Source of the DNA: Rugalucina vietnamica
Taxonomy: Eukaryota > Mollusca > Bivalvia > Lucinida > Lucinidae
Length of the DNA stretch: 64,000 nt
Reading direction: 5' to 3'
Assembly: GCA_964017185.1 (NCBI GenBank)
Contig: OZ024870.1
Span: 54,872,312 to 54,936,311 of the forward strand
Shown here piece by piece: positions 3,735 through 61,186 of the stretch (position 1 is its first letter; each line of letters begins with the position of its first letter). Under the pieces are notes generated by a model. The model was not told the DNA's origin. It saw nothing but the letters and a program-made list of their open reading frames with translations, and did no database searches. The translations under genes and the position numbers were made by a program.

Positions 3735-3900
3735 ATAAAAAGTAAAACTGAGATCCTTTAAGAGCAGCGAACACATTAATGAGAAAGGGGATGGGCCATA
3801 CCGTGGTTTCGACTATCAAAGTCTCGTCAGTGACCCTTTAGATTTGGCAACATGGATCCAGAGAGAATTACTGAAATTTTACAACTTTCAACATGGTAGA
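3735..3900 (-). mobile_element. Second-family retrozyme fragment
   Basis: Matches the ribozyme-bearing half of the 47-kb unit (AAAACTGAGATCCTTTAAGA through TTTGGCAACATGG). The central domain is missing, so it is a partial single copy. Confidence 0.6.
3793..3836 (-). ncRNA. Type I hammerhead ribozyme, second family, isolated copy
   Basis: Minus strand: GGGTCA, CTGACGA, helix II GACT/AGTC with loop TTGAT, GAAA, CCACGG, TA, TGGCCC. Every stem is paired. Relative to the 47-kb copy the second pair of helix II changed from G-C to A-T on both sides, a compensatory change. Confidence 0.82.
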
Positions 3901-10326: not shown

Positions 10327-12306
10327 TAGCTCACCTGAGCCGAAGGCTCACAGATGAGCTTATAGTATACCCATGCTCCAGCGTCCGTCCGTCGTCGTCC
10401 GTCGTCCGTCCGTCCGTCCGTCGTCCACAATTTCAAAGATCTTCTCCTCTGAAACTGCTTGGCCAATCAAAGCCAAACTTCATGTGGAGCATCCTTAGGA
10501 AGGGGGAACGAAAGTTTATATAAATGGTTCAGGTCACATGACCAAGATGGCCGCCATGGCTATAAATAGCAAAAACCTTTAAAAATCTTCTTCTCCAGAA
10601 CCAGTGGGCCGATTTCCATGAAACTTGGTATGTAGCATTGGGGACGCAGGCCCATCATAGTTTATAAAAATCATGACCCTAGGATGACCTTGACCTATTT
10701 TACGGCAAGGTCAACTTAGGTCGCCAATGCATTTGAATGGGAAAAAATGGTAAAATGCTATTTAATGGGTAAAACTTACTGGGAATAGGCAAATGGACAG
10801 AAGATTAATGTTAATGGAAAATTTTACCCCTGGGGGGATGTCTGCCCCTGCCCTGGGGCTATATACATGTATATGACCATAATATTCAAACATCTTCTTC
10901 TCTGAAACCGCTAGGCCAATCAAAGCCAAACTTCATGTGGAGCATCCTTGGGAAGGGGGAAAGAAAGTTTATATAAATGGTCAAGGTCACATGACCAAGA
11001 TGGCCACCATGGCTATAAATAGCAAAAACGTTTAAAAATCTTCTTCTTCAGAACCAGAAGGCCTATGATTTTGAAACTTGGTGTGAAGCATCTGGGAATG
11101 GAGCTCTACAAAGTTTATATAAATCATGACCCTGGGATGACCTTGACTTATTTTACGGCAAGGTCAACTTAGGTCTCCCATGCATTGGAATGGGGAAAAC
11201 TAGGAAAATGTAATTAAATGGCAGAAAACTTGCTAGAAATGAGCAAATGGACAGAAGATTTATGTTTAAGAAAATATTTTGGGCCCAGGAGGTTGTCTGC
11301 CCCTGCCCCGGGGCTATATACATGTATATGACCATAATATTGAAACATCTTCTTCTCTGAAACTGCTAGGCCAATCAAAGCAAAACTTATTGTGGAGCAT
11401 TCTTAAGAAGAGGGAATGAAAGTTTATATAAATGGTCAAGGTCACATGACCAAGATGGCCGCCATGGCTATAAATAGCAAAAACGTTTAAAAATCTTCTT
11501 CTTCAGAACCAGAAGGCCTTTGATTTTGAAACTTGGTATGAAGCATCTGGGAATGGAGCTTTACAAAGTTTGTATAAATCATGACCCTGGGATGACCTTG
11601 ACTTATTTTACGGCAAGGTCAACTTAGGTCGCCCATGCATTTGAATGGGATAAAATAGGAAAATGTCATTTAATGGCAGAAAACTTTCTAGGAATGAGCA
11701 AATGAACAGAAGATTTATGCTTATGAAAAAACTCTAGGCCTAGGGGCTGTCTGCCCCTGCCCTGGAGCTATATATACATGTAGATGACCATAATATTCAA
11801 ACAGCTTTTTCTCAGAAACTGCTTAGCCAATCTAAGCCAAACTTTATGTGGAGCATCCTTAGGAAGAGGAAAGAAAATTTATATAAATGGTCAAGGTTAC
11901 ATGACCAAGATGGCCGCCATGGTTATAATTAGCAAAATTTTTTAAAAATCTTCTTCTTCAGAACCAGAAGGCCTATGATTTTGAAACTTGGCATGAAGCA
12001 TTAAGGAACGGAGGTCTACAAAATTTGTATAAATCATGACACTGGGATGACCTTGACCTATTTCACGGCAAGGTCAACTTAGATCGCCCATGCATTTGAA
12101 TGGAGAAAATTGTTAAAATGTCATTTGAAGGACAAAACTTGCAGTTAATTGGCAAATGGACTGAATTTTTATGATTTGAAAAAGTTCTGACCCTGCCCTA
12201 GGGTTATATACATGCATTGTACCATTCTAGTCTAACAAGTTTATTGGTACATGTATATATCTCAGGTCTCAGGTGAGCGTTTACAGGACCATTGGTCCTC
12301 TGGTTT
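10327..12306 (+). mobile_element. Tandem-core element ('CACCTGAGCCGAAGGCTCA' type)
   Basis: The left end is TAGCTCACCTGAGCCGAAGG, followed by a CGTC-rich stretch (10381-10430). Four direct repeats of about 455 bp start near 10432, 10887, 11341 and 11797, each with CAAGATGGCCGCCATGG and GATGACCTTGAC. The end is TCTCAGGTGAGCG, then a hairpin AGGACC-ATT-GGTCCT followed by CTGG. A hairpin plus CTRR is how Helitron 3' ends look, and tandem cores flanked by fixed ends are known in bivalve Helitron-derived elements; a 5' TC end is not evident here. Confidence 0.7.
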
Positions 12307-17800: not shown

Positions 17801-18118
17801 ATCTGCTATCCATTTACATGTTTCAAGTACCCAGCGTTATGAAAGATGAAGATTGTTACCTGATGTACTTGCGATGACGTCATGATAATCAGTAAAAAAG
17901 TATATAACCACACCCGAATCCAGATCAAAAAGGCCAATTCCGACTCTCGATTTAACATTTTAACATTCTTTGTGAATAGATATCAAGTGTTAATGATATA
18001 TTGCATCGTCGCTCTTATGTTTTATTTGATTTTCATCTTATAGATTAGAAACAGTGTTCTCGTGTAAATTTTTCTAAATTACAGTACAAAAGTCTGACTT
18101 TCGTAGCCGGATTTAAAA

Positions 18119-18164
18119 GGGCAACTGATGAGGGTTCATTACCCGAAACTGCGCAATATAGTCC
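18119..18164 (+). ncRNA. Hammerhead ribozyme, degraded copy
   Basis: CTGATGA, helix II GGGT/ACCC and GAAA are intact. Helix I has an A-A mismatch (GGGCAA against TAGTCC) and helix III a C-A mismatch (GAAACTGCGCAATA). Confidence 0.75.
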
Positions 18165-18492
18165 ATACTTTCTCCCTTTGAATGTTTTACTGCTTCCAAA
18201 GGATCAAACTTTTATATTTTATTTGCTATTACAGCAGCTTGTGTTGTGCCGTGTGGCGGCCCTAAAAAGACTCCCCGTACATCACCCATAGTGCAGATTG
18301 TATTTTCATTTAGGTCCTTTGAGATCAGTTAAGATATTCAGAGTGTTCAAAACACTCACGTTTAGAAACATACTTCTAAGCAATGTTTAAAATATTTGAC
18401 CCCGTTTTGGAATGTCTCTTTGATTTAGACTTCTCGTGTAAATTTTTCGAAATTACAGTACAAAAGTCTGGCTTTCGTTGCCTGATTTAAAA

Positions 18493-18538
18493 GGGCTACT
18501 GATGAGGGATCATTACCCGATATTGCGCAATATAGTCC
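18493..18538 (+). ncRNA. Hammerhead ribozyme, core-mutated copy
   Basis: Helix I GGGCTA/TAGTCC and CTGATGA are intact, but the second core element reads GATA instead of GAAA, a change expected to kill catalysis. Helix II is GGGA/ACCC with one mismatch. Confidence 0.75.
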
Positions 18539-18639
18539 ATACTTTCTTCCTTTGAATGTTTTACTGCTTCCAAAGGATCAAACTTTTATATTTTATTGGT
18601 AAAACACCCCCCACACACACACAATAAAGATTTCTACTG

Positions 18640-24503: not shown

Positions 24504-24804
24504 TATGTGTTACTGATCGTTCCAAGTCGATACTTCTGTAGTGGTTCTTTTTGTTTTATGTCTTGGTGTTTAAAAATTTTTTTTGTGCTGTTGGCGCCTT
24601 ATGTATGTTTTCATATTTTTAGTTAAGTTAAGGTAACTGAGTGGCCACCTATTGGGAAAATAGCTGCTCATTCGGCTCACGATATGTTTCATGGTATAAG
24701 TACCTGATTGTTAGTTTGGTTTTTTCCCACCTTGGTTTTTGGAGTGGGAATCTTTTTCTGATTGCGCCTTTTCCTGATCTTTGCCTACTTGTACCTTTTT
24801 AGTA
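24504..24804 (+). mobile_element. PLE-type 3' end fragment
   Basis: Only the last 300 bp of the family's 3' untranslated region, from GTGTTACTGATCGTTCCAAG to CTACTTGTACCTTTTT. Inserted in block copy I; copies II and III continue from GCATACAGAATAAATAAA without it. Confidence 0.6.
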
Positions 24805-25687: not shown

Positions 25688-26184
25688 TGCTGAGGAAATG
25701 CGCGGTTATGCAGACTGACCCGCGTCTGTCTTGTTCGTAAAGAGAGTATGACAAAAATATCTGCCCGTAATAATGATTTAGTGCTGCAACGGAAATATTA
25801 GGATCAGGAAGTCTCATATGGCTGAAGAGAGATTGGTCTTTGAAAATGATCATGCATCATTTGGTTTAAAACGCCATTAAAATGATATAGACGTAGACAT
25901 CATAATTCAAAACAGGAAGTGTGTCATACGGCTGGTGTTGTGCCGTGTGGCGGCCGTAAAATGTCTCCCCGTACATCATCCATAGTGCAGATTATATTTT
26001 TATTTAGGTCCTTTGACATCAGTAAAGATATTTAGAGTGTTCAAAATATTCAAGTTTAGAAACATACTTCTAAGCAATGTTTAAATTATTTGACCCCGTT
26101 TAGAATGTGTCTTTGATTTAGACTTCTCGTGTAAATTTTCGAAATTAAAGTAAAATAGTCTGGCTTTCGTCGCCGGTTTAAAAA

Positions 26185-26230
26185 GGGCTACTGATGAGGG
26201 TTCATTACCCGAAATTGCGCAATATAGTCC
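26185..26230 (+). ncRNA. Type I hammerhead ribozyme, unit 1 of the 26-kb array
   Basis: All conserved core parts are present. Helix I GGGCTA pairs with TAGTCC (one G-U); core CTGATGA; helix II GGGT/ACCC with loop TCATT; core GAAA; minimal helix III TTGCGCAA closed by the A-U next to the cleavage site; predicted cut after the A at 26224. It is 46 nt long and has no core mismatch. Confidence 0.9.
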
Positions 26231-26558
26231 ATACTATCTCCCTTTGAATGTTCTTCTTGCTTCCAAAGGATCAAACATTTATATTTTATTTGATATTACT
26301 GCAGCTGGTGTTGTGCCATGTGGCGGCCGTAAATAGTCTCCCCGTACATCTTCCATAGTGCAGATTATATTTTTATTAAGGTCCTTTGAGATCAGTAAAG
26401 ATATTTAGAGTGTTCAAAACATTCAAGTTTAGAAACATACTACTAAGCAATGTTTAAATTATTTGACCCCGTTTAGGAATGTTTCTTTGATTTAGACTTC
26501 TCGTGTAAATTTTCGAAATTAAAGTAAAATAGTCTGGCTTTCGTCGCCGGTTTAAAAT

Positions 26559-26604
26559 GGGCTACTGATGAGGGTTCATTACCCGAAATTGCGCAATATA
26601 GACC
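26559..26604 (+). ncRNA. Type I hammerhead ribozyme, unit 2 of the 26-kb array
   Basis: Same fold as the 26185 copy, with intact CTGATGA and GAAA. One helix I position is a G-A mismatch (3' strand TAGACC instead of TAGTCC), which may weaken but need not abolish cleavage. Confidence 0.85.
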
Positions 26605-26932
26605 ATACTATCTCCCTTTGAATGTTCTTCTTGCTTCCAAAGGATCAAACATTTATATTTTTTTTGCTTTTACTGCAGCTGGTGTTGTGCCGTGTGGCGG
26701 CCGTAAAAAGTCTCCTCGTACATCATCCATAGTGCAGATTATATTTTATTTAGGTCCTTTGAGATCAGTAAAGATATTTAGAGTTTTCAAAACATTCAAG
26801 TTTAGAAAAATACTTCTAAGCAATGTTTAAATTATTTGACCCCGTTTAGGAATGTGTCTTTGATTTAGGCATCTCGTGTAAATTTTCGAAATTAAAGTAA
26901 AATAGTCTGGCTTTCGTCGCCGGTTTAAAAAA

Positions 26933-26978
26933 GGGCTACTGATGAGGGTTCATTACCCGAAATTGCGCAATATAGTCC
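26933..26978 (+). ncRNA. Type I hammerhead ribozyme, unit 3 of the 26-kb array
   Basis: Identical in all pairing and core positions to the 26185 copy. Predicted cleavage after ...GCAATA at 26972. Confidence 0.9.
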
Positions 26979-27184
26979 ATACTATCTCCCTTTGAATGTT
27001 CTTATTGCTTCCAAAGGATCAAACATTTATATTTTATTTTATCTTGATCATATTAATTTGCATGTGACTATATGTGATTATCCGCACTTCAAATCCAAAG
27101 CTGGGGACCGCTTCTTGATGCTAAGCTTAGACTTAACTCATATAAGCCTGGCGTCCTTTTTATGGTGCATAGGCAAACAGAATT

Positions 27185-28631: not shown

Positions 28632-30040
28632 AAACCAAGCCCATGAAATGTACACCCACTTGAGACCCAGTTTATAGTAAAGTAAAACTTGGGTGCCAAT
28701 GAAAAGGTACAAGTAGGCAAAGATCAGGAAAAGGCGCAATCAGAAAAAGATTCCCACTCCAAAAACCGAGGTGGGAAAAAAAACCAAACTAACAATCAGG
28801 TACTTATACCATGAAACATATCGTAAGCCGAATGAGCAGCTATTTTCCCAATAGGTGGCCACTCAGTTACCTTAACTTAACTAAAAATATGAAAACATAC
28901 ATAAGGCGCCAACAGCACAAAAATTTTTTTTAAACACCAAGACATAAAACAAAAAGAACCACCACAGAAGTATCGACTTGGAACGATCAGTAACACAAAG
29001 TTACTGGCGGGCTTAAACCGGTTTTACATGGCCATAACCTCACCCTCAGCTTCTGCAGTGGTTCATAACATTTAGTTAGTTATTCGGTCCTCGTGGTGAA
29101 TCTCTAACTAGTCAATGAATCATCAAGAACAAACAAATAAATCATGATAAACATCCTGATGGATCAAAAACCAGGACTCACAGACTGAGTAAGCTGCCCG
29201 ACGATGGAGATCCCTGGGCGCCGAATAACGTACTAACTCCGGAGCAAAAGAAAAACACGAGTTGGACCCCGGTGGGCCAAGCAACAGACAAGAAGCTCCG
29301 GCCCCAACCAACTAAAATGAATAGCTTTATGTCGGGGCCATCATAGAGTCTGACGCCCACCCACCGGCGTGCAATTAAAGAAGGCAGCATAGTTATCAAC
29401 CATGATTGGGTTAAAAACTAAGCATGCAGACTGTCGCATAACATTTAAGTTATAACCTACACGTCTGTAACGTGTTATGATTTTTCTGAACTGAAAAGAA
29501 AAATCATTAATTCCTTTAAGTTTCTTAAATTTGTAAACCAAGTCACCATAAAATTCAGGTTCCGAAAGGCCCTCACTTAAAAGCGTCTTTAACCCAACAT
29601 TATATTTGGAAATCAATTCATAGTGTCTACGATAAAATTTAGAAAATGTTTTTCGAAGTTTATGATACCGATAGCCCTGTTGGAGAAGTTTCGCCGTTAA
29701 ACATTTATTTCGAGCGTTGAAGTCTGTAACATGATTGCAGACTCTAGCACACCTAATAAGTTGCGAAATGTATACACCATAAGAAGCACGACGAGGAACG
29801 TCACCATCCAAAAAAGGAAAATTTACTATATCAATTATGGCGGGTCATAATAATGGCGGGTCTATTCGTCGTGATACATCGTGATTTGTCTCATTTTTGA
29901 CCAAAAACATAGATTGTGGGTACTCGTGAGAACCTCCTTTGGAGCAAATATATTAAAAATATTATTTTTGTTTTCTTAAAACGTTTTCAATTTTTACAAC
30001 TCAGAAAAAAATCTGTACAAGGACTACAAGTTTTCATCAT
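28632..30040. mobile_element. MITE family B copy split by the PLE insertion
   Basis: Right-end part at 28632-28700 (CCCATGAAATGTACACCC) and left-end part at 29885-30040 (TAGATTGTGGGTACTCGTGA, CAAGTTTTCATCATGAAAC), separated by the PLE copy at 28704-29838. The intact counterpart is at 62995-63222. Confidence 0.65.
28704..29838 (-). mobile_element. PLE-type retroelement, 5'-truncated, with RT fragment
   Basis: Same 3' region and RT C-terminus as the 59-61 kb copy. The RT part (29341-29838) reads DGDVPRRASYGVYISQL through NYAAFFNCTPVG, then shifts frame, so the usual end is lost. It sits inside a palindromic MITE (28632-30040) that is uninterrupted in the related block at 62995-63222. A stretch of about 25 bp, GGTCATAATAATGGCGGGTC and following bases, occurs both before (about 28582) and after (about 29848) the insertion. 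Confidence 0.7.
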
Positions 30041-32055: not shown

Positions 32056-32846
32056 AACAGTTTAGAAAAATCATAACACGTTACAGACGTATAGGTTATA
32101 ACTTGAATGCTATGCGACAGTCTGCAAGCTTAGTTTTTAACCCAATCACGGTTGATAACTATGCTGCCTTCTTTAATTGCACGCCGGTGGGTCGGGCGTC
32201 AGACTCTATGATGGCCCCGACTTAAAGCTATTCATTTTAGTTGGTTGGGGCCGGAGCTTCTTGTCTGTTGCTTGGCCCACCGGGGTCCAACTGATGTTTT
32301 TCTTTAGCTCCGGAGTTAGTAAGTTATTTTGGCGCCCAGGGATCTCCATCGTCGGGCAGCTTACTGAATCTGTGAGTCCTGGTTTTTGATTCATCAGGAT
32401 GTTTATCATGATTTATTTGTTTGTTCTTGATGATTCATTTACTAGTTAGAGATTCACCACGAGGACCGAAGAACTAACTAAATGTTATGAACCACTGCAG
32501 AAGCTGAGGGTGAGGTTACGGCCGTGTAAAATCGATTTAAACCCGCCAGTAACTTTGTGTTACTGATCGTTCCAAGTCGATACTTCTGTGGTGGTTCTTT
32601 TTGTATTATGTCTTGGTGTTTAAAATATTTTTGTGCTGTTGGCGCCTTATGTATGTTTGCATATTTTTAGTTAAGTTAAGGTAACTGAGTGGCCACCTAT
32701 TGGGAAAATAGCTGCTCATTCGGCTTACGAAATGTTTTCATGGTATAAGTGGTGTTAGTTTGGTTTTTTCCCACCTTGGTTTTTGGAGTGGGAGTCTTTT
32801 TCTGACTGCGCCTTTTCCTGATCTTTGCCTACTTGTACTTTTTTAT
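32056..32846 (+). mobile_element. PLE-type retroelement, short 3' copy
   Basis: Begins within the RT C-terminal coding part (about 32056-32225, AAATCATAACACGTTACAGA onward) and runs to the shared 3' end TACTTGTACTTTTTT. Carries several substitutions relative to the 50.8 and 59-61 kb copies. No intact ORF. Confidence 0.6.
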
Positions 32847-37554: not shown

Positions 37555-38437
37555 TGAAAACTAAAAGGTCCAAGACAGGGTGCAATTTTCTCACTTAAAT
37601 CAATATTCAAAATAAATATAATAGCATTGATGGTCATGCAAGACACGAAATTGTTTAGCTGGAAAATTATTCACAAAAAGTTTGCTTTGTAACATGTGAG
37701 TAACATTAAATACTTATAATTGGATAAATCATTATTAATTTTGCGTTTTCAGAATTCTGACTTGTATCATTCAATGTTCTAGAAAAAGATGTTACCGGTC
37801 TTCAAATTTCATGCACTTTTCAGCATATAATCTATATATGTGTAGCCTAATTTGAGGTTAAAATTATAGGTTGACAAAACCTGGAACATGTTAAAATTGA
37901 AAATCAAACATGTGGTTACACCATTATGGAGCTTAAATTTAGGGTTGTCTGCAAAACAAATGATAATCAGCTGAATTCAATATTATAGCTATCAACAAGT
38001 ATGCAATACCACAATGATGGGTGATCATTCTAGATCATTTTACAAACAAACATAGTTAAGAAGAGGCTATTATGACGATTATGGGCAACTTTAATCACAC
38101 ACACCCCTAAATTCAGACCCCCTCTAATACAAAATGTTGTATTTAAAAATTTTAAGAAGTTAAGAGAAAATCTATATTACTAATAAAGCGGTCATGCACC
38201 AAGCAAGCAATATGCATAATATTATAAAAATCGGTGCGTGGGCAGAACCCTATGTAAATTTCATATAGCGTAAGACCCCCCCCCCCTTTCTGAAATATAC
38301 TCAAAAGATATTGCTGCTTGAAATTATGCTAAAGGCTTCTTCAACGACGCGTTACTTTTTCTGATAGCTGGAGTGTCTACGAACTTTCTTGCCATACCTC
38401 GTAAAATATTCCGTTGCATTATTTCAGTGAATAAAAA

Positions 38438-38600
38438 TAAAACTGAGATCCTTTTAGAGCAATGAACATATTAATGAGAAAGTGTATGTGTCATACCGTG
38501 GTTCCGGCTACTTAAGCCTCTTCAGTGACCCTATAGATTTGGCAACATGGAACCAAAGTGAATTACAAAATTTTTGCATCTTTTCAACAAAAATTATCAG
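38438..38600 (-). mobile_element. Second-family retrozyme fragment with mutated hammerhead
   Basis: The ribozyme region spans about 38488-38531 on the - strand: CTGAAGA and helix II GGCT/AGCC are intact, but GAAA reads GGAA, which should abolish cleavage. Flanks match the 3.8 and 47 kb copies (AAACTGAGATCC, TAGATTTGGCAACATGG). Confidence 0.65.
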
Positions 38601-41468: not shown

Positions 41469-43250
41469 ATGGGTTGGTATTGGAAAGCAGCAGTGACTCT
41501 TGCACTTGCACACACGTGACGTTCTGTTTACTCGCCACCATTTTGAAACCGAGGCGATCCATGACGAATATGACTATATTGTTATTGGCGGGGGCTCGGC
41601 TGGTTCCGTTGTAGCCACAAGACTCTCCGAAGATGAACGAACGACAGTTCTTCTTCTTGAAGCTGGTGACCATTATGTTAAATATCCCATAATGAGTATT
41701 CCTCTACTGTGGCCGATGTCTTTAGGAACGGAGCATGACTGGAACTACCCAATGAAATCACAAAGTCAGTCATTTTGGGGACTGAATGACAACCAGGCTG
41801 TTTGGCATGGTGGACGTGTCTTAGGTGGAAGTGGAATGCTGAATGTTTTAATGTGGATAAGGGGTTCTAAGGATGACTTTAACGAATGGGCGAATAATGG
41901 ATGTAAAGGCTGGAGTTACGTTGATGTATTGCCGTATTTTCGTCTGAGGACATGCTGGTCGATGATTTGAAGTCATCTAAATATCATTCGACAGGTGGAC
42001 CCATCGCTATAAGCGACCCAATTGTGACTCCTCTCGGGGATTTGTATCTAAAAGCGGGAAAAGAACTGGGGTATAAGATATCAGATTATAATGGAGAAGA
42101 ACAAGAAGGATTTAGTCGAATGCAAACAAACATACGTGATGGAATAAGAAGTAGCTCAGCAGCTGAATTCATCGCACGATCAACCGGAAGAAACAATCTT
42201 CATTTAGCTTTGAGGAGTTTTGTCACTAAAATTGAAATAGAAAACCTAAAGGCAACCGGGGTATTTGCCATTCGAAATGGTAGAAAGCAGTTTATAAAAG
42301 CAAGAAAAGAAGTGATTGTGTCCGCTGGAGCAATCAACACTCCAAAATTGTTGATGTTGAGTGGCATAGGACCAAAACGCCACGTGAATGACATTGGCAT
42401 TAAAGTAGTAAAAGATCTGCCAGTGGGACAAAATTTGCAAGATCATATGATGTTGAATATGTATACTGGAATAAACTCTTCTTTAAGTGTGACAGCTGAG
42501 CGCGCACAAACATTGTGGAGTATCATTAATTACAAACTATTCGGGAAGGGACCACTTTCAATCGGAGGCAGCGAGGGGGTAGCGTTCCTCCACACAGATG
42601 AGACAACAAGAACAAAAACTTATGCTGACATTCAACTCATATTTTCTAGCAGTTTTCCACATGATTTGTCGGCCTTTAATCTGGGAAAGGATGTATCCTA
42701 TGAATACTTAGCTGCAACTCCAAACGAAGATGGATTTGGTGTTTCCGTAGTGCCCACCCATCTTAAAAGCAGGGGCTCTGTCAAACTGAGGAGTTCTGAT
42801 CCATTCGATCCTCCTATTATTGACCCACAATATCTGACAGACACAGAAGACATAAATTCAATAATTTCGGGGTTGAAAATCTGGGAAAAACTGATGCTGA
42901 CGTCAACGTTTCAGAGTATAGGAGCTAGTATGAACAGATCAAAGATGTCGTTTTGTTCTCAGCATGAGTTCCGATCAAATGCATACTGGGAGTGCCATAT
43001 CCGCCATCTTGCTCTGTCTATGACACATCATGTAGGGACGTGTAAAATGGGTTCTGAAGACGATCCTACTACAGTGGTTGACTCCACATTGAAGGTTAAG
43101 GGGATAACTGGACTCCGTGTGGTCGATGCTTCTATATTCCCTAATATAACTGCTGGGAACATATATGCACCTGTTATAATGGTGGCAGAGAAAGCCGCGG
43201 ATATGATAAGAGGCATAGACAGTGTTCAAAAGTTCAGGAATGTTAAATGA
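41469..43250 (+). CDS. GMC-family oxidoreductase (choline/glucose dehydrogenase-like), frameshifted
   Basis: FAD-dependent glucose-methanol-choline oxidoreductase, about 575 residues across frames, the usual family length. Visible in order: the N-terminal Rossmann dinucleotide motif VIGGGSAGSVVATRLSED followed by VLLLEAG; GMC signature 1 around GGRVLGGSGMLNVLMWIRG; signature 2 GAINTPKLLMLSGIG; and the C-terminal catalytic region MTHHVGTCKMGSEDDP with VVDASIFPNITAGNIYAPVIMVAEKAADMI. The family oxidises alcohol groups with FAD; the substrate cannot be read from sequence. The frame breaks near 41944-41952: the upstream frame ends RLRTCWSMI-stop, while the homologous reading SEDMLVDDLKSS continues one frame over. 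A hydrophobic start MGWYWKAAVTLALAHT at 41469 lies in yet another frame from the body, which becomes readable at about 41515, so a second frameshift is likely. No GT-AG intron explains either break. It is therefore an intronless young pseudogene or has sequence errors. The family call is secure; functionality is not. Confidence 0.88.
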
Positions 43251-45580: not shown

Positions 45581-47094
45581 CAAATATTGGTTATATTTAA
45601 TACATATTTCTCTATATTTCATCACTTGCTATATAATAAAAAAATGATATTTGTTCGTTGCAGGAAAAAATATGTTTTAGACGGTTTCGATCAGCCAAAC
45701 ATGGAACTAAAAGCGTTTGCTAGAGCCATCAATTCCAATTTAGTAAGGGTCCTGGATAATTAATGCAATGCATTTGAAAGGCTCATACCACAAACATGCC
45801 TTTGTTCTCGTATTGTTTGTCAGCCTATGTCTTGATGGTCTCGCTGTTTTATGTTTGATATCATAAAATTCTCAGTGGAGTATTATCCTAGCATCTTAAA
45901 ATTACATTTTGGGCTGACTAATGGTGTGCCCAAATCTGATTTAGAATCTACAATCAATGCGCTGTAAACTATTATCATCCTTCCCATTGGTACGAAGAAA
46001 ATCGTACTGAAAATTCTTAATATTTTCTTCCGAACTAAATCGTACTGAAAATTCTTAATAATTTCTTCCGAACTAATTTGTGGTGTGTAGAACAATCGTC
46101 GCAAATTGTTCGCTCTACTCGAGCTGACAAATGAAATATGTGAGGCCAACTATGGCATCACAGTATCGATACAGTTTTCAAAATTAGGCACGTAAGCATT
46201 GGCATCTATTTCTGTAGCATTACTTGCATGACATCACTAACCAATACAACTAGGCTTAATCTTGACCTTAATTTAGTTCATGTATTGGCCCATTATACGC
46301 TAAAAATTCGTATTCTCTGCTGATTCGTCCTCTAACTTTAAAGACCGAATTTAGTCTTGTAAAGGCAAGCGTCATCTAACCTTACATCGAATGGGTCGCC
46401 CTTCTGTTGAATGACAATGAGAATTTACAGGATGCCCCCGAGTTTATCACAATAACCTAATTTGCAACTTTATTTCACTCATTTTTGCAAGCTTGTGGAT
46501 CGGAAGGTTTCAACTATACATTAGAGTTATAGCAGATTCATGGTCGGATTATATTTGTCCTCGCCTTGCTCCAGAACCTGACGCATGTCCGTGGAATGTA
46601 CAATACTGCTATCCTTGCTCCAGTACTGATAAGCTCTATTTCATTAGTTTCTGACACAAAATTTGCTGTGCCTAAAATATGTATACACGTATTCAAAATT
46701 TGTTTTTACTGGACATACATGTTGCAAAAATCATACTCATTAGATGTAAGCCTCTGCACAAATGTAAAATGCTCGTCCTCTGTGACCCACACATGTAATA
46801 TAACGATCACGTGATATTAAAAATCTTACAAAGCAAGCTGACACCACAGCAAACGAATTTAAAAAAAAATAATGATAAAAACATTTATTATTTACTGCTA
46901 TGAAACAAACGAAAAAGACAATCTCATTTGTATTTTATAGTTGACAAAATAAGGATGATCATTGTGACAAGACACCTGCCTACATGGTTTATTACATACG
47001 ATTTTCGTTATATTTTATATAAGAACTAGAACATGAAATAAAGATAAAACTGAGATCCTTTAAGAGCAGTGAGCATTTTAATGAGAAAGGGGAT

Positions 47095-47138
47095 TGGCCA
47101 TACCGCGGTTTCGGCTACTTAAGCCTCTTCAGTGACCC
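47095..47138 (-). ncRNA. Type I hammerhead ribozyme, second family, unit a
   Basis: Minus strand: helix I GGGTCA against TGGCCA (ends in one mismatch); core CTGAAGA; helix II GGCT/AGCC with loop TAAGT; core GAAA; helix III CCGCGG; cleavage triplet GTA. CTGAAGA fits the CUGANGA consensus. Confidence 0.82.
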
Positions 47139-47446
47139 TATGCAGCCGAAGAGAATTACTGTAATTCAGGGTAGTGGATACAAATCTAGTAGTAAATACA
47201 AATGGGGCCAGATATCTAAAACGTTGGTTATAAAATGAATCTAAACCGATAATAATTTTCTGATTTCTCAGAATACCCTCGCTGATCTCAAAGGACCAAA
47301 AGGAAAATATAATCTGCACTATGGACCTTCTACGGGGTGACTTTTTACGGCCGCCACACGTAACAACACTATCTGCAGTAATAGGAAATAAAGATAAAAC
47401 TGAGATCTTTTAGCAGTGCAGTGAGCATATCAATGAGAAAGGGTAT

Positions 47447-47493
47447 GGGCCATACCGCGGTTTCAGTTACCACCTAAGCCTCTTCAGTGACCC
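47447..47493 (-). ncRNA. Hammerhead ribozyme, second family, unit b (diverged)
   Basis: Helix I GGGTCA/TGGCCC, CTGAAGA, GAAA and CCGCGG are intact. Helix II (GGCTTAGGTGGTAACT) has an enlarged loop and one broken pair, so activity is doubtful. Confidence 0.72.
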
Positions 47494-48512
47494 TATAGAT
47501 TCGGCAACATGGAGCCAAAGAGGATTACTGTAATTTTGCATCTTTCAACAGGGTAGTAGATACAAAGACTAGTAGCAAATCCAAACTCTGAAAGGTACGA
47601 AAAGAAAGTCAAGGGGTCGATACAATTAAAGCTAAACTCCCAGCCTATGCACCAGGAGGGGCTAACGGTCAACATAATATTCACAAAATAACAACACGCC
47701 TAACAGTCAAAACGATATGACCTACTCTTTCCCAGCGATGTAGTCATCTGGCTAGCATCAAACAAAACACAGTTGACTAGCACAACGGAGAGGCATACAG
47801 AATAAATAAACTTCACGGATTAATTCATAAGTGCATGTACTTTGCTTACCACACAAACTGCAGATGTATTAAAAGTTATATGCCCCTATCAAAAAGTTAT
47901 TCAGAAACTCGAAAGTGAATTTTTTTCGGAGACAATTTCAAGAACTCCTGGAACTTTTACTCTGTCGATGCTGGTCACTTCTGCAACAGCCTGCTGACAT
48001 TTTACTCTTACTGAAAAGGGAAGTATCATGTTGTAATTCATCATCATTAACCGCTAATGAACCATTGCACGAAACAAGGGCCAGGAATTTGTCAGACATT
48101 ATATGAATGAGCCACGTGCAGTGAATATGTATTTTCTGTAATTCAGGACCAAATATTAAGACAAATGTACAAATTAAGAAACTTCACCAGCTGCAAGCTT
48201 GAATGGTTGTCATACAATATTATTGGCAAAAGTATATTTGCTGAGGGAATGCGTGGCTATGCAGACTGACCCGCGTTCGCAAAGAAAATATGACAAAAAA
48301 TTCTGCCTGTAATAATGATTTAGTGCTGCAACGGAAATATAAGAAGCAGGAAGTCTCATATGGCTGAAGAGAGATTGGTCTTTGAAAATGATGAAGCATC
48401 ATTTTGTAAAAACGACAAGAAAATGACACGGAAGTAGACATCATAATTCCAAGAAGGAAGTGTATCATCTAATATTTTTCTCGTGATTACGTAAAATTTG
48501 CATCTGACCATA

Positions 48513-50844: not shown

Positions 50845-51788
50845 AAGATTTTAAATTTTATCGTAGACACTATGAATTGATTTCCAAATATAATGTTGGG
50901 TTAAAGACACTTTTAAGTGAGGGCCTTTCGGAACCTGAATTTTATGGTGACTTGGTTTACAAATTAAAGAAACTTAAAGGAATAAATGATTTTTCTCTTC
51001 AGTTCGGAAAAATCATATCACGTTACAGACGTATAGGTTATAACTTGAATGTTATGCGACAGTCTGCATGCTTAGTTTTTAACCCAATCATGGTTGATAA
51101 CTATGCTGCCTTCTTTAATTGCACGCCGGTGGGTCGGGCGTCAGACTCTATGATGGCCCCGACTTAAAGCTATTCATTTTAGTTGGTTGGGGCCGGAGCT
51201 TCTTGTCTGTTGCTTGGCCCACCGGGGTCCAACTGGTGTTTTTCTTTTGCTCCGGAGTTAGTAGGTTATTCGGCGCCCAGGGATCTCCATCGTCGGGCAG
51301 CTTACTCAATCTGTGAGTCCTGGTTTTTGATTCATCAGGATGTTTATCATGATTTATTTGTTTGTTCTTGATGATTCATTGACTAGTTAGAGATTCACCA
51401 CGAGGACCGAAGAACTAACTAAATGTTGTGAACCACTGCAGAAGCTGAGGGTGAGGTTAGGTACCTGTAAAACCGGTTTAAGCCCGCCAGTAACTTTGTG
51501 TTACTGATCGTTCCAAGTCGATACTTCTGTAGTGGTTCTTTTTGTTTTATGTCTTGGTGTTTAAAATTTTTTGTGCTGTTGGCGCCTTATGTATGTTTTC
51601 ATATTTTTAGTTAAGTTAAGGTAACTGAGTGGCCACCTATTGGGAAAATAGCTGCTCATTCGGCTTACGATATGTTTCATGGTATAAGTACCTGATTGTT
51701 AGTTTGGTTTTTTCCCACCTCGGTTTTTGGAGTGGGAATCTTTTTCTGATTGCGCCTTTTCCTGATCTTTGCCTACTTGTACCTTTTA
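50845..51788 (+). mobile_element. PLE-type retroelement, 5'-truncated, with RT C-terminus
   Basis: RT codons run from about 50850 to the stop at 51165-51167 (YRRHYELISKYNVGLKTLL through GRASDSMMAPT), followed by the family's 3' region ending TTGTACCTTTT. The related block at 31500-31580 lacks this insertion: its CTTTAATAAACTGTCTGGG joins sequence found on either side here. A short duplicated TTTTA at the junctions fits target-primed insertion. It is a 5'-truncated dead copy. Confidence 0.72.
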
Positions 51789-52167
51789 ATAAACTGTCTG
51801 GGCTATATTTCCAGCTGCTTAAGTCTATTTGATTTCAATGTCATAGTTATTGTGTACATGAAGATACATTTTGCAACAAGAAATCGATTTGAGACACGTG
51901 TGTCGGAAAGCATGATTAATTTCTGAGAAACATTGTATAACATGTTATTACATGTATGATTAGGTTTATTTGAATTCGCAGTGCAGCACGTGCCATTGTG
52001 TAATTTCTATTTTAGTTTGCCTAACGGTGCATGAAAATTCGGAACATACATGTAGCGAAGATCAGTAATAGCACGTTTGTCTAAAGAACTCTCAGTAAAA
52101 GGAAAAACAAAATAGATGCATACTTAAATCCATTGCTAATATTTCAGTGGAGCATGTTTTTCAACAA

Positions 52168-58800: not shown

Positions 58801-59139
58801 TTGAAATCTAAAGTCGTGGTCCGCTTCTAGACGGCATGAGAACGGAACTAAACTAAGTGTCCTTTCCATTTCTCCATGATGTCACTGAAGACCCTATTCT
58901 GGCTAAGTCGAGACTTCCATAGTCGCAAAGCCAAGTCTGGTTCGTTCGACTTTTTACGCAGTGGCTCCTTTTGTTTCAATGCGATACTTCTGTTGTGGTT
59001 CTAATTGTTTGATGTTTTGGTGCAGTGTTTGTGCTGCTTCCTGCCTATCTTCGTTTTAGTCAAGTTCGGGTATCTGAGTGGCCGCCGATAGGGAAATAGC
59101 TGCTCGCCCGGCTTACGATATGATTTTTTAGTATAAAGA

Positions 59140-61186
59140 GGTACAAGTAGGCAAAGATCAGGAAAAGGCGCAATCAGAAAAAGATTCCCACTCCAAAAAC
59201 CGAGGTGGGAAAAAACCAAACTAACAAACAGGTACTTATACCATGAAACATATCGTAAGCCGAATGAGCAGCTATTTTCCCAATAGGTGGCCACTCAGTT
59301 ACCTTAACTTAACTAAAAATACGAAAACACACACAAGGCGCCAACAGCACAAAAAATTTTAAACACCAAGACATAAAACAAAAAGAACCACCACAGAAGT
59401 ATCGACTTGGAACGATCAGTAACACAAAGTTACTGGCGGGCTTAAACCGGTTTTACAGGTACCTAACCTCACCCTCAGCTTCTGCAGTGGTTCACAACAT
59501 TTAGTTAGTTCTTCGGTCCTCGTGGTGAATCTCTAACTAGTCAATGAATCATCAAGAACAAACAAATAAATCATGATAAACATCCTGATGAATCAAAAAC
59601 CAGGACTCACAGATTGAGTAAGCTGCCCGACGATGGAGATCCCTGGGCGCCGAATAACCTACTAACTCCGGAGCAAAAGAAAAACACCAGTTGGACCCCG
59701 GTGGGCCAAGCAACAGACAAGAAGCTCCGGCCCCAACCAACTAAAATGAATAGCTTTAAGTCGGGGCCATCATAGAGTCTGACGCCCGACCCACCGGCGT
59801 GCAATTAAAGAAGGCAGCATAGTTATCAACCATGATTGGGTTAAAAACTAAGCATGCAGACTGTCGCATAACATTCAAGTTATAACCTATACGTCTGTAA
59901 CGTGATATGATTTTTCCGAACTGAAGAGAAAAATCATTTATTCCTTTAAGTTTCTTTAATTTGTAAACCAAGTCACCATAAAATTCAGGTTCCGAAAGGC
60001 CCTCACTTAAAAGTGTCTTTAACCCAACATTATATTTGGAAATCAATTCATAGTGTCTACGATAAAATTTAGAAAAGGTTTTTCGAAGTTTATGATACCG
60101 ATAGCCCTGTTGGAGAAGTTTTGCCGTTAAACATTTATTTCGAGCGTTGAAGTCTGTAACATGATTGCAGACTCTAGCAAACCTAATAAGTTGCGAAATG
60201 TATACACCATAAGAAGCACGACGAGGAACGTCACCATCCAAAAAAGGAAGATTTACTATATCAAAATCAAAGTCATCGCGCCTATCATAAATTTTAGAAG
60301 AAACAAATCCATTTGCAACAGAAAGATGTAGATCTAAAAAGGGGGCTTCGGTATCTGAGATATTAGCTTTGTTCAACTGAAGTTCAGGTGGATAAATTTG
60401 ATTGACCATACCTTCAAAATAAGGGTTGTCAATGTTCAAAAGGTCATCGAGGTACCTAGATGTGGAATTAAAAGCCTCGATAACATCAGCTTGATTATCA
60501 TGGTTAAGAGAATCCATGAAATCTCTTTCGTAGCAGTATAAAAATAAATCAGCTACGAGAGGTGCGCAATTTGTACCCATCGGAATTCCAACAATTTGTC
60601 TGTATAACTTGGTCCCAAATCTAATATAAATATTATCAAGGAGATAGGATAAGGCGTCGCACACATTCTGACATGACCAAAGGGTATACCGACTTTGGTC
60701 AGAGGAAGTGAAAAAAGCCTTTCTGTCATTACATGCCAAATAAAGTGAACCATAGTTTTTTAATGCCCTTTTGAAGGTCCACTCTATCAAATCCAGAAGT
60801 TTTTCTTTAATTAGATTATGTGGTAATGTTGTATACAGAGTAGAAAAATCATATGTGGACAAGCTTGTCGCACGGAACCCTCTACACTTCAATTTACTGA
60901 GCACCTCACCAGAATTTTTTATTGACCAAAACCAATTTTTATTTGAAGTTTCATACACTGTCTCACAGTATCTTATAACATGAGATTTGATAGCAGTAAG
61001 ACAAGAAGTTAATAATTTAGAAAGTTCAGTGGTAGTACAAGAGCTAGAATTTGCAATAAATCTAGCTTTGTATGGTCTTTTGTGAAGCTTAGGTAACCAA
61101 TACATCGTAGGAAGTTTGTCTTGGCCTTCATTGACACAAACAGAAAACTTAACAGGTAAATCGTTTAAGTGGGCATTTACTGATTG
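59140..61186 (-). mobile_element. PLE-type retroelement copy, longest in window
   Basis: Contains the RT ORF above plus a 3' untranslated part ending GCCTACTTGTACCTCTTT (- strand). Other copies share the GCCTACTTGTACCTTTT end, which defines the 3' terminus. There is no poly(A) or LTR. The 5' side is cut off near 61190, where unrelated block sequence resumes. Directly adjoining in opposite orientation at 58975-59138 is a diverged 3'-end relative, so two copies meet head to head at their 3' ends. Confidence 0.7.
59756..61177 (-). pseudogene. Penelope-like reverse transcriptase, 5'-truncated ORF
   Basis: Open reading of about 473 residues; the homologous part starts near NAHLNDLPVKFS and an in-frame stop lies upstream at 61187-61189. 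RT motifs in order: LPKLHKRPYKARFI (fingers), STYDFSTLYTTLP (motif A, first catalytic Asp), GIPMGTNCAPLVADLFL (motif B), SRYLDDLLNID (motif C, YLDD) and EAPFLDLHLSV, followed by a C-terminal region with RASYGVYISQLIRFARVC. The LPK-H-K start and the FLD motif after YLDD fit PLE-type RTs better than LTR or LINE RTs. It ends PVGRASDSMMAPT-stop with no GIY-YIG endonuclease visible, so it is an endonuclease-lacking type or uses another ORF. The polymerase core looks intact; the N-terminal part is missing. About 620 bp of 3' non-coding sequence follows, down to 59140. RT call 0.9, PLE assignment about 0.65. Confidence 0.75.

Follow-up and report, generated by a model that had tools for sequence, protein, structure and literature searches.

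Which enzyme moves the retrozymes of animals, and why do these elements lie in tandem? Both questions are raised by a short array of 374-bp repeats in a bivalve genome. In 2020 it was proposed, from common hammerheads, tandem copies and co-existence, that Penelope-like elements (PLEs) might move retrozymes (PMC7229834); a 2020 review reports that metazoan retrozymes show no conserved motif revealing an autonomous partner (PMC7761336). In this study, we analysed a window of 64,000 nucleotides, that is, the whole stretch of DNA at C2:54872312-54936311, in the 1.09-Gb, 47-contig assembly of one bivalve species. We consider it likely that the array is a metazoan non-LTR retrozyme whose circular RNA parasitises a Penelope-like element. 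The patterns that we computed directly are fixed 3' ends, scattered 5' ends, homogeneity of the arrays, a motif at a similar offset in both elements, and conservation of motif and ribozyme; cleavage, circularisation, protein binding and transposition are inferred.

The array, named A1, and its hammerheads are the following.

25931..27039, + strand: retrozyme array A1, three 374-bp units, a 3-mer minus about 13 nt on the 5' side (delimited from TRF and paralogous arrays genome-wide)
26185..26230, + strand: hammerhead of unit 1, defect-free; cleavage expected after 26224
26559..26604, + strand: hammerhead of unit 2, with a single mismatch in helix I (TAGACC); expected to cut after 26598
26933..26978, + strand: hammerhead of unit 3, defect-free; cleavage expected after 26972

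TRF reports A1 as one array with a period of 374, 3.0 copies and 95% matches. The first-pass annotation had claimed three ribozyme motifs exactly 374 bp apart, and their starts at 26185, 26559 and 26933 bear this out. The parts that it named, including a 4-bp helix II and a minimal helix III, can also be read in the sequence, in the order helix I GGGCTA/TAGTCC, CTGATGA, helix II GGGT-TCATT-ACCC, GAAA, TTGCGCAA, TA. This geometry is that of a type I hammerhead, in which helix III is the very short self-complementary TTGCGCAA (2-bp). Units 1 and 3, for which defects of core and pairing had been denied, are both clean, and the only defect of unit 2 is its mismatch in helix I. A descriptor composed after the A1 motifs had been seen finds the three A1 sites and two minus-strand sites (47132 and 3830) in the window; it has 0 matches in 60 dinucleotide shuffles, on which ground we rejected a chance origin of the motif. 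The same annotation had named Infernal scores below threshold for all units as one outcome that would refute it, and formally this outcome has occurred, as every unit lies under the Rfam gathering score. Hammerhead_1 is absent from the 10 rows of a relaxed-limit Rfam search of A1, whose best match is RAGATH-1-hammerhead (RF03152), at 23.7 bits for unit 3 and 18.6 for unit 1. With a cut-off of 56.3 bits, A1 falls outside RF03152. We think that the scores stay under threshold because helix III is only 2 bp long.

Such a short helix III bears on how the ribozyme would work. Two forms of it, TTGCGCAA and TTGTACAA, are both self-complementary. The second occurs in 34 of 138 scanned hammerheads, as against 3 single-step intermediates, in a scan that counts overlapping loci repeatedly and in which at least 12 of the 34 cases come from one array; counted otherwise, it is present in 8 of 51 arrays and in 126 exact copies genome-wide. 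When two copies are cofolded, a classical dimeric hammerhead results (-33.5 kcal/mol), whereas a single copy folds into a non-hammerhead structure (-9.5 kcal/mol). These folding models suggest that cutting is probably most efficient when two RNAs pair and form a common helix III of 10 self-complementary bp. However, the support that the two forms lend to a dimer is weakened because both changes sit on CpG sites, where paired deamination could mimic covariation. The hammerheads of PLEs (RAGATH-1) reportedly cleave as dimers, an observation attributed to Lunse et al. in 2017.

The A1 units belong to a large family. When a 37-nt pattern of the core was searched for in the genome, allowing up to 3 mismatches, 4,928 matches were found (2,354 + 2,574), as against 0 for its reversed control. 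An intact hammerhead is found in 66 of the 98 full units of the similarity-sampled set. The arrays are plain repeats of a unit with 35% GC and a longest ATG ORF of 36 aa. Set against the description of metazoan non-LTR retrozymes, the family has the tandem repeats of 150-450 bp in many copies (374 bp, 4,928 core matches), the non-coding unit with less than 50% GC, and one type I hammerhead per unit as judged by descriptor and geometry, the Rfam thresholds being missed. The usual highly self-paired circular RNA is not seen: the circular fold of the unit is 59% and 63% paired, with z values of -0.97 and -0.66 against shuffles, and its stability is thus not above that of shuffles, for a feature on which the source sets no cut-off. 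The plant LTR retrozymes, with type III hammerheads in LTRs and 4-bp duplications, are another class, since the hammerheads are of type I here and duplications are not above control. Altogether, the bivalve-type retrozyme of the first-pass annotation is supported by the 374-bp tandem units, the type I hammerhead with a tiny helix III and the 35% GC, and further by the lack of a long ORF, the thousands of copies and the bivalve host. We place the A1 family among the metazoan non-LTR retrozymes, as an addition to a class already known; self-cutting and 374-nt circles are predicted from its sequence. No relatives of it were found in bacterial and archaeal genome contigs. The sole match in a viral contig, a hammerhead at L001:5650 (-) of a 36-kb IMG/VR contig, has the same helix II and loop letters and a long helix III; we judged it convergent and unrelated. 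Two weaker hammerhead-like Rfam matches lie near it in that contig.

The window holds further copies, overlooked in the earlier annotation.

18057..18597, + strand: array A2, same family as A1, 1.45 units; 3' terminus as in A1, 5' end different
47034..47585, - strand: sister family B, copy with two hammerheads (dimer); same 3' module, diverged motif at 47331-47367
3735..3899, - strand: sister family B, copy with a single hammerhead, also found by the descriptor
38430..38589, - strand: sister family B, decayed copy with a single hammerhead

Both hammerheads of A2 (18119-18164 and 18493-18538) carry defects. Between the hammerheads of families A and B, pairing is kept by two-sided changes: pair 5 of helix I goes from U-A to C-G, pair 3 of helix II from G-C to C-G and, in one B copy of the window, pair 2 of helix II from G-C to A-U. 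As to the surroundings of these copies, a large block is present three times in the window, at 24.3-31 kb, 46-52 kb and 56-64 kb; these copies have diverged and differ in the insertions that they carry. In an empty-site test, the joined flanks of A1 were compared with two paralogous blocks, and the alignment is strongly diverged at the junction. The window also contains a 455-bp tandem repeat (10425-12183; 3.9 copies, 87% alike) and a GMC oxidoreductase gene (41497-43250). Bivalves are all the organisms named among the 120 relatives listed for this gene (Mya, Mercenaria, Ruditapes, Mactra), most listed rows being nameless; on this ground we take the host to be a bivalve.

How the copies were inserted can be read from their ends. 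We combined a first sample of 41 arrays (39 loci from a similarity search and the two window arrays), which favours arrays of at least 2 units, with a second sample of 30 loci from a pattern search, taken in order along contig C1, which requires an intact core and therefore misses short inserts that end at the cleavage site. Nine rows with duplicated flanks or overlapping places (L016, L022, L036; L057, L062, L063, L068, L069, L073) were removed, which reduced these 71 arrays to 62. Unit positions are numbered from the first base 3' of the cleavage site. We found that the 3' end is fixed: it lies at position 64-67 in 44 of the 62 arrays and at 57-77 in 58 of them. Under uniform placement, such clustering has a chance of about 10^-71.5, for a bin picked after the data had been seen. 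The four exceptions end at 18, 204, 229 and 254, and in the first of these the unit sequence picks up again at 19 beyond an interruption, to stop at 65; among the dropped rows, L016 has its 3' end at 216. In A1, this terminus is the following.

27029..27039, + strand: fixed 3' terminus ATATTTTATTT, ending at unit position 65/66; putative start of reverse transcription

The alignment of A1 itself extends by chance to unit position 72. On the other side, 5' ends are scattered and come within 3 nt of the cleavage site in only 1 of the 62 arrays; there is therefore no run-off spike at the cut RNA end. In the first sample, 5' ends did cluster close to the ribozyme, which we ascribe to the length selection of that search. 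Arrays measure from 0.27 to 14.3 units, the largest value being that of one array, and 12 of 24 inserts sampled by pattern are shorter than one unit. In 34 arrays, we looked for target-site duplications next to the insertion or up to 100 nt away, and found none above mismatched-flank controls. In the description of metazoan retrozymes, duplications of more than 4 bp apply "when present". A C directly follows the inserted sequence in 25 of 56 retrozymes, and in 7 of 17 copies of the PLE to which we now turn.

Its copies and fragments in the window include the following.

59132..61186, - strand: Naiad-like PLE, 5'-truncated copy with an RT ORF at 59756-61186, 99.5% identical to L079:124-2175; proposed mobiliser family
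50849..51791, + strand: Naiad-like 3' fragment, ending at the element's fixed 3' terminus
28699..29834, - strand: Naiad-like 3' fragment, ending at the same terminus
32058..32846, + strand: Naiad-like 3' fragment, ending at the same terminus
24506..24801, + strand: Naiad-like 3' fragment, ending at the same terminus

L079, our reference, is a tandem PLE locus with a period of 4,231 bp (nearest spacings 4,230 and 4,232); head-to-tail copies of the element, about 4,231 bp apart, stand at C1:100815124, 100819354 and 100823586. Its frame of 1,101 codons contains three in-frame TGA codons and encodes an N-terminal GIY-YIG-like stretch, recognised by eye, followed by the RT, in which candidate PLE motifs were likewise read by eye. 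Straddling the end of the RT ORF, SECIS_1 scores 39.0 bits in L079 (at 1524 and 5754), against a cut-off of 35, and 37.4-39.0 bits in four window copies (32200, 51142, 59714 and 29285). Naiad PLEs, reportedly described by Craig et al. in 2021, are said to carry in-frame TGA codons, a 3' SECIS and a nuclease-like stretch before the RT. Our element has the SECIS and the in-frame TGA codons of that type, and may thus be a retrotransposon that uses selenocysteine. Searches of Pfam and PDB with its protein gave no useful match, Pfam finding no domain. For this reason we call the partner Naiad-like on the grounds of these sequence features. An AlphaFold model of the RT was too poor for use (pLDDT 40.5). 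With the window RT ORF as query, the best 89 of 34,379 candidates are 99-100% identical, 88 of them without a stop. The 3' ends of the PLE fall at L079 2168-2178 in 17 of 20 sampled copies, seven window copies ending at 2171-2175; of the other three, two continue in tandem and one has a different structure. In L079, the one full PLE unit checked, no hammerhead was recognised, and the ribozyme is therefore not what the retrozyme and the PLE have in common. The PLE protein had no match in the viral contigs searched. Penelope-like RT proteins that are 77-82% identical (P0022 and P0024) and filed in bins of Candidatus Thiodiazotropha are most likely host DNA in symbiont assemblies, which suggests that the contaminating host is a lucinid-like relative.

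What the two elements do have in common is a motif of 41-47 nt, which occurs at the following places in the window.

25937..25977, + strand: PLE-shared motif of A1 unit 1, from unit position 85; 95% identical to L079:2190-2230
26310..26350, + strand: PLE-shared motif of A1 unit 2; 93% identical to L079:2190-2230
26684..26724, + strand: PLE-shared motif of A1 unit 3; 95% identical to L079:2190-2230
18238..18283, + strand: PLE-shared motif of array A2; 95.7% identical to L079:2184-2230, E 3e-14

Over this motif, the 113 full retrozyme units without exception resemble the beginning (5') of the Naiad-like PLE, with a median identity of 97.6%. The best match has an E value of 9.8e-16, and the best match anywhere else in the PLE unit 1.6; outside the motif, no similarity to the PLE unit was found in the 113 full units. 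The motif occupies a similar place relative to the insertion ends of both elements. In the retrozyme it begins at unit position 85, 18-19 nt past the 3' end of the insertion; in the PLE, its GTTGTGCC begins at L079 2190, 11-21 nt past the observed 3' ends. The 5' motif region is kept in 8 of the 20 PLE copies, seven with the exact 19-mer at 2190 and one with a variant. The 12 copies without it comprise one that reaches only to the junction, one of another region and ten truncated or unmatched. We rejected a retrozyme inserted in the PLE, as only 41-47 nt are common, there is no hammerhead, and the place is constant in the copies that keep the region. A second retrozyme/PLE pair, through family B, was also rejected: a partner search with the diverged B motif returned 2 places, the window copy and a near duplicate of that locus.

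The motif and the ribozyme are the slowest-diverging parts of the unit. Non-CpG divergence in 39 arrays is 1.9% in the motif block (67-138), 1.1% in the hammerhead and 3.7% in the rest; the corresponding values in 12 separate arrays are 3.2%, 1.9% (biased by the selection of arrays) and 6.6%. When all 72-nt windows are ranked, this block comes 5th of 372 in one sample and 6th of 371 in the other. Moreover, one A and one B unit are 80-93% identical across this block and 27-73% over most of the remaining sequence. The arrays are also internally homogeneous. Among the 113 full units, divergence is 2.1% within arrays versus 6.6% between them; of the 98 units that belong to multi-unit arrays, 82 find their nearest neighbour within their own array (2.8 in label shuffles), and 30 of 36 multi-unit arrays are monophyletic. 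Of 300 variants segregating inside an array, 137 are private and 53 are seen again in at least three other arrays, whereas those fixed in an array are private in 48 of 369 and recur in 256. This homogeneity fits repeated laps copying one circular RNA, the alternatives being a recent linear multimer or local homogenisation.

A life cycle can be proposed from these data. Read-through transcripts of tandem copies would be cut by the hammerheads, probably best pairwise, into 374-nt monomers, which a host ligase would close into circles. Such closure has been demonstrated in vitro for other retrozymes (PMC7229834). The PLE reverse transcriptase would then bind the 41-47-nt motif of the circle and begin reverse transcription from a fixed position some 18 nt upstream of it, an RNA 3' end being unnecessary by analogy with the Anolis PLE. 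The Anolis enzyme starts reverse transcription at an internal RNA site, 111-118 nt into the ORF, and needs RNA reaching past the start, to 172 (PMC11167929). The retrozyme has this layout laid out on a ring, which is why we propose a PLE enzyme that binds the motif and starts about 18 nt upstream. Lapping the circle, it would produce insertions that measure 0.3 to 14 units, always stop at the same 3' position and vary in where their 5' end falls. Several observations count against this parasite model: duplications not above control, the Rfam misses, a circle no more stable than shuffles, a full PLE unit (L079) in which no hammerhead is recognised, the CpG position of the two helix III changes, the 53 of 300 within-array variants that recur, the 4 of 62 arrays with other 3' ends and the single species. 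Of note, the best-scored PLE copies (the best 89 of 34,379 candidates) are 99-100% identical and the arrays differ by several percent; hence, the true partner may have been an ancestor of the PLE seen today.

The homogeneity of the arrays could also arise if the same PLE enzyme had copied uncut linear multimers of older arrays, with the hammerhead mattering little for movement. We give this reading a smaller but real chance, one that overlaps with that of the circle model because the circle step is the only difference between them. In its favour, hammerhead mutants of the Anolis PLE left in vitro insertion unchanged, and unprocessed RNA was judged the dominant substrate (PMC11167929). However, differences within arrays are private more often than fixed ones, the ribozyme is conserved, and four multi-unit arrays (L025, L028, L033 and L040) show zero counted substitutions between units, although copying from a source array that was itself young and homogeneous would give the same picture.

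The position of the motif weighs on another reading, namely that it is a promoter or transcription signal rather than a recognition site for the RT and that some other retroelement mobilises the retrozyme. The motif does lie at the 5' start of the PLE unit, a possible place for a promoter, and retrozymes seem to be promoterless according to the 2020 review (PMC7761336), so that a transcription signal would have to come from elsewhere. Yet transcription leaves unexplained why, in the retrozyme and the PLE alike, the motif follows so closely on the fixed 3' end of the insertion, and in the Anolis PLE the needed RNA likewise reaches past the start site (PMC11167929). We therefore regard this reading as improbable. 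Finally, we give hardly any credence to a true satellite carrying a relic hammerhead, since unequal crossing-over and gene conversion would also yield homogeneous arrays and might grow one of 14.3 units, but 58 of 62 arrays have the fixed 3' boundary although their flanks differ, and many inserts are below one unit (12 of 24, pattern-sampled), both of which are marks of retrotransposition, and the motif and ribozyme modules are both conserved.

If the retrozyme is indeed a circle-borne parasite of the PLE, a circle without a 3' end is copied over many laps from a fixed internal site. This would tell us which enzyme moves metazoan retrozymes and why they stand in tandem. We lean, with less assurance, toward the broader idea that animal retrozymes in general are PLE parasites of this sort, each with a compact start module of the local PLE. 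The motif that points to the probable partner sits by the fixed insertion end, where internal initiation by a PLE would place it, and the question of the retrozyme partner can now be tested with one purified RT and a 374-nt RNA. Our literature search, incomplete in coverage, found no report of a motif link between retrozymes and PLEs. Thus, as far as the literature surveyed goes, the fixed end and the common motif are new evidence.

Among known systems, the closest by description are the retrozymes of Mytilus galloprovincialis, of 350-390 bp and with about 5,000 hammerheads (Cervera and de la Pena, 2020; PMC7229834). Tandem units, type I hammerhead, low GC and bivalve host are alike, a likeness at the level of description; what differs here is that the insertions share a fixed 3' end and that the unit carries a motif of the local PLE. 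With the Anolis PLE, our elements have in common genomic 3' ends on internal start sites and RNA needed past them, both putative in our case, and tandem arrays (Frangieh et al., 2024; PMC11167929). In contrast to PLEs with internal initiation, the retrozyme is non-coding, while in the local PLE a GIY-YIG-like stretch stands at the N-terminus and no hammerhead was recognised. This local PLE resembles Naiad in its in-frame TGA codons, its 3' SECIS and the nuclease-like stretch ahead of the RT. The retrozyme hammerhead has the same order of parts as RAGATH-1 (RF03152), whose model has a hairpin upstream of the hammerhead; however, the helix III of that model is longer, and the score is 23.7 versus 56.3 bits. 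A last comparison is with SINE/LINE pairs, in which a non-coding element borrows, as a common 3' tail, the RT-recognition sequence of an autonomous element. Unlike in those pairs, the partner here is a PLE and the template probably a circle, and the common sequence therefore lies downstream of the insertion end and is missing from truncated inserts.
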